From: Alphaproteobacteria bacterium
Lineage (GTDB): Bacteria; Pseudomonadota; Alphaproteobacteria; UBA2966
Direction of reading: 5' to 3'
DNA length: 64,000 nucleotides
Assembly (NCBI GenBank): GCA_018650465.1
Contig: JABIFY010000074.1
Coordinates: 1 to 64,000, forward strand
Part shown: positions 58,724 through 61,185 of the stretch, one piece after another
Layout: the number at the start of each line of letters is the position of its first letter
How positions within the stretch are numbered: the stretch's first letter is position 1
Made by a program: the position numbers and the translations under genes
The notes under the pieces: generated by a model
The model's database searches: none
What the model was told of the DNA's origin: nothing
Seen by the model: the letters and a program-made list of their open reading frames with translations, nothing else

Positions 58724-59680
58724 CTATTCAGCTTCGAAAATTGTCCGCAGCCCGCTTTGGTAATCCGGGTACTTCAATGTCACGCCAAGTTCTTCGTGCA
58801 GTCGATCATTGCGCACACGTTTATTATCTGACCAAAACGTCTGTGCCATGGGTGACAGGTCTGCCTGCTCATAGGGGATGATTGGCGGCACCGGGACGTT
58901 CAAAAGCTCACAGGCGAATGCCGTCACTTCCGATGGCGCTGCCGGATTATCGTCACAGACATTGTAGGCGGCACCGGCATTGGGTTTTGCCATAGAGGCC
59001 CGCAAGATCGATACGATATCTTCCACATGTATGCGGCTAAAGACCTGGCCGGGACGATGTACCCGTTTGGCCCGGCCCGCCCTGACCTGGTCCAAAGCAC
59101 TGCGTCCGGGCCCATAAATGCCCGCCAGGCGAAACAGGTGAACAGATATGTTTGCGGCTTTGCCCAGGGCCAGCCAGCCATCCTCGGCATCAACCCGTCT
59201 TTGACCCCGTTCAACTGCCGGGGTCCGCGGCGATGTCTCGTCCACCCAGCCACCATCCCTGTTGCCATAAACCACTGTTGTCGAGAGATATCCGACCCAA
59301 TCCAGATCCTTGCCAAGGGATTGCAGGTCTCTGGCGTGGCAATCCAGTACCGGATCGCCTGAAGCGTCCGGCGGTATTGAGGCCAGCACATGCGTGACGC
59401 CTTCCAGTAGCGCGGCAAGGTTATCAAGAGGCTGGTCCCGGTCAAAGACAACAGCATCAATACCCTGCGCCTGGAGCAAAGCAGCGGTTTCTTGCGTGCG
59501 GCAGGTTCCGGCCACTTGCCAGCCATCTGCAATCAGTGCACACGCCAAAGCCTCGCCTGTATATCCAATGCCGAAGCAGAACAGTTTTCCCGTAATTGCC
59601 TTAATCCTCACTAAATCATTGTAAATAAGAGCCAAATTCTCCAAGGCATCTTGAGTAAAGCCAAGTAGAATGAATTTCAT
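58724..59680 (-). CDS. NAD-dependent epimerase/dehydratase-like SDR protein (YeeZ-like)
   Basis: An extended SDR protein of up to 318 residues. The nucleotide loop FGIGYTGEALA replaces the usual GxxGxxG, as in YeeZ-type proteins, followed by LSTTVVYGNRDGGWVDE in the active-site region. Typical proteins start just before the beta strand LFCFGIGYTG. The ATG at 59680 adds about 30 residues, and a GTG at 59611 is a plausible true start; I kept the long form. Function unknown. Confidence 0.75.
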   Translation of the reverse strand: MKFILLGFTQDALENLALIYNDLVRIKAITGKLFCFGIGYTGEALACALIADGWQVAGTCRTQETAALLQAQGIDAVVFDRDQPLDNLAALLEGVTHVLASIPPDASGDPVLDCHARDLQSLGKDLDWVGYLSTTVVYGNRDGGWVDETSPRTPAVERGQRRVDAEDGWLALGKAANISVHLFRLAGIYGPGRSALDQVRAGRAKRVHRPGQVFSRIHVEDIVSILRASMAKPNAGAAYNVCDDNPAAPSEVTAFACELLNVPVPPIIPYEQADLSPMAQTFWSDNKRVRNDRLHEELGVTLKYPDYQSGLRTIFEAE

Positions 59681-59749
59681 CTGAATTTATTACAAAGCTG
59701 TTACAAAATAGCACTTATCTGACATAAGCCTGATACATAGATTGTGTTT

Positions 59750-59947
59750 AATTGAAGTCGACAAGAGCGGTCATCAGGGCCATCCAGCTGGATTTGAGGT
59801 TTCTCTCCACTGGATTACATCCCCAGGCCCTGGCTGCCCCCTTCTTGTCTTCCCTGACCGGCACCCCCCTGCCGGTCCAGACTGACGCCTCCCCGTCAGT
59901 CTTCCCTGTCTATAACTTCCCCTCGCTTTTGCGAGGGAATTTTTTTG
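59750..59947 (+). ncRNA. Candidate small RNA with three hairpins and C-rich loops
   Basis: Three hairpins follow one another without a reading frame. GACCGGCA/TGCCGGTC encloses CCCCCC (59856-59877), GACTGAC/GTCAGTC encloses GCCTCCCC (59880-59901), and CCCTCGC/GCGAGGG is followed by a seven-T run (59920-59947). C-rich hairpin loops able to pair with Shine-Dalgarno sequences, plus an intrinsic terminator, are typical of trans-acting alphaproteobacterial sRNAs. The 5' end is only estimated, since I could not assign a promoter; the core is 59856-59947. Flanking genes point away or converge, so it is not a leader. Confidence 0.6.
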
Positions 59948-60027
59948 TTCACTGTCCAGGCGATTCCGGTTTAGACGTAATCGCTTCAGATTTGTTCATT
60001 GACGCACACCTGGAGCTTGAAGCAACG

Positions 60028-61185
60028 CTACGTTTCCGTGAGCCCGGAAACGTTCTCCCATTCTGCCCGAACGTCCGCATCTTCTTCCTGCGCGGTATGT
60101 TTTTCAGCCAGGTCGGCAAATTCCTGGGCAGACTTTAGTTGAGACAGCGCCCAAATGGCAGCGCCCCGGACAACAGGTGCTGGATCATGCAACAAGTCTT
60201 CGGCTTTTGTCGCAAGTTCAGGCATATTTGAGTTGCCAATAGCGATCAATACATTGCGGACAAACCGGTCCCGCCCGGTTCGTTTGATGGGAGAGCCTGA
60301 AAACACCTGTCGAAAAGCTGCATCATCCAGCGTGACAAAATCCCGCAATTGCGGTGCCGTCAGTTCAATGCGCGGTAAAAATGCCGGTTCTTTATGAGCA
60401 TCTGCAAACTTGTTCCAGGGACAAACAGCGAGACAATCATCGCAGCCATATATGTGGTTGCCCATGGCTTTTCGATACTGCCTGTCGATGTGACCTTTAT
60501 GTTCGATGGTCAAATAGGAAATACAGGCCCGGGCATCCATTTTGCCGTCGGGCGACAATGCCCCGGTAGGGCAGACCTGAATACAGGTTCGACAACTGCC
60601 GCAATGATCTGTGTGGGGTTGGTCCGGTTCAATTTCCAGGGAGGTAAAAACTTCACCCAAAAACAGCCACGAGCCGAATTCACGTGACACCATATTCGTG
60701 TGTCGCCCCTGCCAGCCCAGTCCGGCAGCTGCGGCCAGGGGTTTTTCCATAACAGGTGCGGTATCAACAAATACCTTCACATCACCACCAGCCTCTTCGA
60801 TCAACCAGCGCGCCAGGCGCTTGAGACGACTTTTTACCAGATCGTGGTAATCCCGCCCCCGGGCATAGATTGCGATATTGCCACGCTCAGGGTGGTTCAG
60901 CAGGTGCAACGGGTCATCTTTTGGCGCATATGACAGGCCAAGAGAAATCACCGTCCGGACATCTGCCCAAAGGCCATTGGGGTCCTGGCGCCTGTCCGTG
61001 TTGCGCGCCATCCAGTCCATTTCACCGTGCCGGTCATCGGCGATATAGGCAGTTAGATCATCCGCTTGTGGTCCGCCCACAAAGGCTGTTGCCGGTGCAA
61101 ATCCGACGGCATCAAACCCGAGGGCGATGGCCTGCGCCCTGATTTTTTCTTTAAGGTCAGCGTCTACGGGAAGATCGCCGCTCAT
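60028..61185 (-). CDS. queG: Epoxyqueuosine reductase QueG
   Basis: A 385-residue cobalamin-dependent reductase for the last step of queuosine synthesis in tRNA. The DUF1730 domain (ISLGLSYAP) is followed by two [4Fe-4S] motifs, CGSCRTCIQVCPTG and CDDCLAVCPWNKF with an earlier Cys, and a C-terminal HEAT-like repeat region (VVRGAAIWALSQL). The ATG at 61185 removes an upstream extension in the open frame that would overlap nothing conserved. It lies 44 bases after the GST gene in the same direction. Confidence 0.92.
   Translation of the reverse strand: MSGDLPVDADLKEKIRAQAIALGFDAVGFAPATAFVGGPQADDLTAYIADDRHGEMDWMARNTDRRQDPNGLWADVRTVISLGLSYAPKDDPLHLLNHPERGNIAIYARGRDYHDLVKSRLKRLARWLIEEAGGDVKVFVDTAPVMEKPLAAAAGLGWQGRHTNMVSREFGSWLFLGEVFTSLEIEPDQPHTDHCGSCRTCIQVCPTGALSPDGKMDARACISYLTIEHKGHIDRQYRKAMGNHIYGCDDCLAVCPWNKFADAHKEPAFLPRIELTAPQLRDFVTLDDAAFRQVFSGSPIKRTGRDRFVRNVLIAIGNSNMPELATKAEDLLHDPAPVVRGAAIWALSQLKSAQEFADLAEKHTAQEEDADVRAEWENVSGLTET

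Follow-up and report, generated by a model that had tools for sequence, protein, structure and literature searches.

The window analysed here is a stretch of 64,000 nucleotides from an alphaproteobacterial contig, and the segment of interest within it is flanked by an SDR-like gene and queG. Both genes are on the minus strand, leaving the plus strand between them without any gene that leads into the segment or follows it. The original prediction had placed in this segment a free-standing small RNA with anti-Shine-Dalgarno-like loops and no gene downstream on the same strand, and the orientation of both neighbours agrees with it on the last point. Its gap of 347 bases holds for a start of the SDR-like gene at 59680, but because relatives align only from about residue 26-32, the ATG assigned there (within 59590-59680, minus strand) is probably too far upstream and the real gap probably larger. 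The features of the locus, with identities to a congener that is introduced below, are as follows.

58724-59680, minus strand: SDR-like gene, on one flank of the RNA
59689-59706, plus strand: upstream block TTACAAAGCTGTTACAAA, which matches the congener in 17 of 18 columns and contains TTAC...TTAC repeats with a spacing of 11 bases
59719-59736, plus strand: PhoB-box-like direct repeat CTGACAT-AAGC-CTGATAC (congener CTGACAT-ATAG-CTGAAAC)
59747-59752, plus strand: candidate -10 element TTTAAT, assigned from sequence, 10 bases after the repeat (congener TCTAAT)
59758-59946, plus strand: predicted sRNA gene of about 189 nt, from the fold z-score, congener identity and the edges of conservation; its predicted 5' end may be off by a few bases
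59758-59852, plus strand: 5' structured domain, a long branched stem-loop of about 95 nt, drawn from the fold and from conservation in the congener
59856-59877, plus strand: hairpin A, 8 perfect pairs, with loop CCCCCC (59864-59869) as candidate anti-Shine-Dalgarno site 1
59879-59902, plus strand: hairpin B, 9 perfect pairs, with loop CCUCCC (59888-59893) as candidate anti-Shine-Dalgarno site 2, like AbcR motif M1 (CUCCCC)
59883-59947, plus strand: part of the RNA that aligns to R2, a covariance model of AbcR-locus RNAs
59901-59919, plus strand: linker CUUCCCUGUCUAUAACUUC, candidate anti-Shine-Dalgarno site 3, like AbcR M2/aSD2 (UUCCC), from the R2 match and the M1/M2 definitions (PMC5461406)
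59920-59946, plus strand: intrinsic terminator, a hairpin (59920-59937) of 7 pairs with loop TTTT, then AA and seven T (59940-59946)
Other flank of the RNA, minus strand: queG (TIGR00276)

The plus strand from 59758 to 59946 folds as one compact RNA with an energy of -84.2 kcal/mol, where its shuffles average -51.0 (z -8.4). The wider segment 59740-59960 gives a z of -6.7, and for neither segment did any of 200 shuffles reach the stability of the native sequence. All three hairpins of the original prediction are present with the pairs listed above, as is the terminator with its seven T, which is the sole terminator-like site in 59500-60150. The loop sequences also stand, with the small qualification that the form in which the second was given, GCCTCCCC, takes in the closing G-C pair of hairpin B. 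Absent from the earlier description were the 5' structured domain and the conserved putative promoter (59689-59752). A peptide encoded inside the RNA was considered and rejected: the window copy is without an ATG, and any reading frame is shifted in the congener by an insertion and a deletion of one base.

A BLAST search of 60 relatives found the RNA in only one congener, at 88% identity over 189 nt. There it occupies the same place, between the SDR-like gene and queG, and folds alike (z -7.2). Conservation extends over both parts of the molecule: the 5' domain is identical in 82/96 columns, the 3' half in 86/94; the loop and stem of hairpin A are invariant between both genomes, the outermost pair excepted. 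Outside the RNA, identity falls to 16/49 columns immediately before the putative promoter block and to 4/14 beyond the terminator. The consensus pairs (53/53) form in both genomes, four of them with one side changed and one with both. No pair is broken in the whole RNA. With only two sequences carrying the full RNA, 258 of 500 shuffles equalled the covariation score. Taken together, fold stability and conservation with every consensus pair kept uphold the central claim of the original prediction, further strengthened by the conserved putative promoter block and by the independent recovery of the RNA with an AbcR-type covariance model. We regard it as very probable that 59758-59946 is a bacterial sRNA gene.

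Searches further afield trace a narrow distribution. A full-length model of the RNA (R1), run against 385 genomes of the class, gave strong matches solely in the two congeners. It gave no strong match in the five remaining family genomes, and the weak ones there were noise, apparently inside coding sequence. The 5' domain (59758-59852) was not found outside the genus, and plasmids searched for the RNA yielded none. Neither the named neighbours found via the SDR-like protein nor the neighbours of queG showed such a double hairpin. As far as sampled, the RNA is restricted to this genus. Five weak R1 matches in the class were set aside as other RNAs, terminators or chance. Two of these weak class matches proved to be RNAs that read ACGUCUCCCAGACGU...CCUCCCUGUUNAACUU-terminator, and they led to the RNAs of the AbcR locus.

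The same RNA is present in this genome, in the congener and in a further member of the family (G003). In this genome and in G003 its neighbours are trxB and a LysR gene, which is how the abcR locus has been described (PMC7486931). A covariance model (R2) was built from five such RNAs, with the window RNA left out, and used as an independent test; four of these RNAs have a confirmed LysR or trxB neighbour, and the fifth, from G389 (L078), does not. On this genome R2 scores the canonical trxB-LysR copy at 74.7 bits, the window RNA at 35.7 and a third site at 22.1, and on the congener, in the same order, 74.6, 37.8 and 21.0. The E-values for the window RNA are 1.7e-9 in a search of the window and the congener locus and 1.2e-7 in a search of the genome. 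For comparison, the weakest LysR/trxB-linked members score 40-43 bits. R2 spans 65 nt, part of which is a terminator common to many RNAs. Of 61 genomes, 39 contain R2 matches. Among the 30 best loci, 23 adjoin LysR and/or trxB genes.

Of the defined AbcR pairing motifs, M1 (CUCCCA) lies in the loop of the first hairpin, while M2 (GUUCCC) occupies the linker before the next (PMC5461406); the corresponding sites of the Sinorhizobium meliloti AbcR RNAs are aSD1 CUCCUCCC and aSD2 UUCCCCUC (PMC8844928). At the M1 and M2 places the window RNA carries CUCCCC and CUUCCC; the former equals M1 of S. meliloti AbcR2, and the linker is one base off GUUCCC. We therefore consider the window RNA likely to be a trans-acting, AbcR-like anti-Shine-Dalgarno sRNA, in appearance a diverged, additional relative of the AbcR RNAs.

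The canonical copy in this genome (G000 C115:55128-55203; L149, L165) carries the M1 motif CUCCCA, is missed by the Rfam model RF02345 (ar15) and falls below the suhB cut-off. With this copy missed, and with R2-type RNAs in 39 of the 61 relatives, this AbcR branch seems under-represented in Rfam. The window RNA likewise has no match to RF02345, and no Rfam family was assigned to it at gathering or relaxed thresholds. The original prediction gave no family name. AbcR (alpha-r15 type) comes nearest, but its strict locus and Rfam features are lacking.

The ancestry of the RNA and the part it plays admit several readings. Lying between the SDR-like gene and queG, the window RNA is not beside trxB-vtlR/lsrB, and because this locus and the Rfam model both fail and the match covers only 65 nt, true descent from AbcR is unproven, if marginally probable. 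It is a serious, though not quite probable, alternative that a C-rich-loop sRNA of independent origin has become AbcR-like by convergence, with the same mechanism and a different ancestry. Anti-Shine-Dalgarno loops followed by a terminator are a common sRNA design, and several unrelated families share the layout (NfeR1/alpha-r14, MmgR/alpha-r8, SorX/SorY, anti-hemB). The Burkholderia sRNA anti-hemB (RF02837) gives a weak match to 59853-59946, at 20.2 bits against a cut-off of 49.5, which the C-rich loops and terminator common to both RNAs probably explain. A position away from the AbcR locus and a 5' domain without counterpart in the R2 family also fit a separate origin, whereas the R2 match does not fit so easily: it takes in the linker UCCCUGU, beyond the loop alone, and scores 13 bits more than the genome's next site.

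Two further readings are much less likely. The RNA might be a cis element or untranslated region, such as the long 3' UTR of a neighbouring gene, an attenuator or a terminator region, as its place between two genes and the terminator at its end could suggest; with both neighbours on the minus strand, no plus-strand gene before or after it, and a conserved putative promoter block of its own, this is highly improbable. Nor is it likely that the C-rich loops serve as a sponge or protein-binding RNA, capturing another RNA (a G-rich sRNA or mRNA) in place of repressing a large number of mRNAs. There is precedent in Caulobacter, where the C-rich SisA-D are bound by the G/A-rich sponge CrfA, placing such RNAs in sRNA-sRNA pairing (PMC12559287), but the anti-Shine-Dalgarno loops of studied relatives act on mRNAs (PMC8844928).

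As an AbcR-like sRNA, the molecule would be a free-standing, trans-acting RNA of about 189 nt whose 3' half comprises a CUCCC-loop hairpin, the single-stranded linker CUUCCCUGU and a U-tailed terminator, and to this half a second C-loop hairpin and the genus-specific 5' domain would have been added. The U-tailed terminator would presumably anchor Hfq, whose gene is present in the genome. The three C-rich sites could then pair with G-rich Shine-Dalgarno regions of mRNAs and block ribosome entry, silencing a set of genes probably concerned, as with AbcR, with nutrient uptake and metabolism. A single pattern search of this genome counted 37 cases of GGGGAGG 4-10 bases before an ATG; the reversed pattern, as a control, gave 9. 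With gene names read from sequence, the first genes with such leaders in the two genomes include an ABC-transporter ATPase, ABC permeases, a periplasmic binding protein and a glutamine-synthetase-like gene; in both genomes the leader also precedes a gene for sulfate adenylyltransferase. These genes are target leads only, because any SD-rich gene would pass.

Pattern search of the upstream region found no sigma-70 consensus promoter; what is found is a conserved -10-like element with direct repeats upstream, within a second conserved block (59718-59752) in which 27 of 35 columns are identical in the congener. Direct repeats followed after 10 bases by a -10 element are the layout of PhoB-activated promoters. 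The repeat scores 11/14 against CTGTCAY-N4-CTGTCAY, equal to the best box before pstS of this genome (CTGTCACAAAAACTTCAC), whose 11 matches were counted by eye. The Markov chance of such a box is 0.9% for the region and 0.04% with the -10, for a site spotted before scoring; the box is an imperfect one, and scores of at least 11/14 are reached by 20 sites in the window. Because the PHO-box pattern is not enriched genome-wide (13 against 12 in a control), the case for a box is drawn from position and conservation alone. The pst region encodes a full PhoB that passes the NCBIfam cut-off. Transcription would probably be switched by an OmpR/PhoB-type regulator acting through the direct repeats just upstream of the -10, and may respond to phosphate shortage. 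PhoB itself is a tentative candidate for this role, and another OmpR-type regulator is possible. Farther upstream, the block at 59689-59706 may hold distal half-sites of a regulator or may belong to the promoter that serves the divergent SDR-like gene. The combined picture, of a phosphate-starvation-induced, PhoB-controlled AbcR sibling in which the AbcR anti-Shine-Dalgarno module is fused to a new 5' domain and second C-loop, is rather unlikely to hold in full. If true, it would wire AbcR-type pairing and silencing of uptake genes to phosphate status in this genus, and would show sibling anti-Shine-Dalgarno sRNAs gaining new inputs with their pairing sites kept.

Judged by sequence, the window RNA is probably a new, structurally enlarged AbcR-like sRNA, genus-restricted within the sampled genomes, and it would add an expanded member of this kind outside the well-studied rhizobia. 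The trxB-LysR-linked AbcR-type RNAs are themselves widespread in alphaproteobacteria, yet missed by current Rfam models. Another alphaproteobacterium (G053) has two copies of a multi-anti-Shine-Dalgarno, R2-type RNA that parallels the window RNA, at C2:1037066-1037132 and C1:1701292-1701358 (L197, L198), with C-rich loops, the linker GUCUUCCCU and a terminator; they differ from the window RNA in stems and 5' part, score 31.1 and 28.9 bits with R2 and are not found by R1. A further genome carries two tandem RNA copies (G036 C3:381882-382101; L200) with ACCUCCCUGUUGGACU before the terminator, the wording of Rhodobacter SorX/SorY.

Among known systems, MmgR/SisA-D (alpha-r8, RF00519 suhB) resembles the window RNA in having a single C-rich anti-Shine-Dalgarno stretch before the terminator; RF00519 gave no match to it up to an E-value of 10, and alpha-r8 is linked to a formylglutamate amidohydrolase gene (PMC12559287). 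NfeR1 (alpha-r14) shares the plan of several hairpins with anti-Shine-Dalgarno loops, and redundant action of such sites is known from NfeR1 (PMC8844928, PMC7143759), but that RNA is 115 nt long with three identical motifs, whereas the window RNA has three differing sites and no Rfam match. The closest parallel is with AbcR1/AbcR2 (alpha-r15) of the Rhizobiales and Brucella, with which the window RNA shares a 3' module of CUCCC-loop hairpin (M1/aSD1), C-rich linker (M2/aSD2) and terminator. It departs from them in its size of about 189 nt against 114-121, in its extra C6-loop hairpin and 5' domain, and in a promoter that looks PhoB/OmpR-type and, unlike that of AbcR, not LysR-type.
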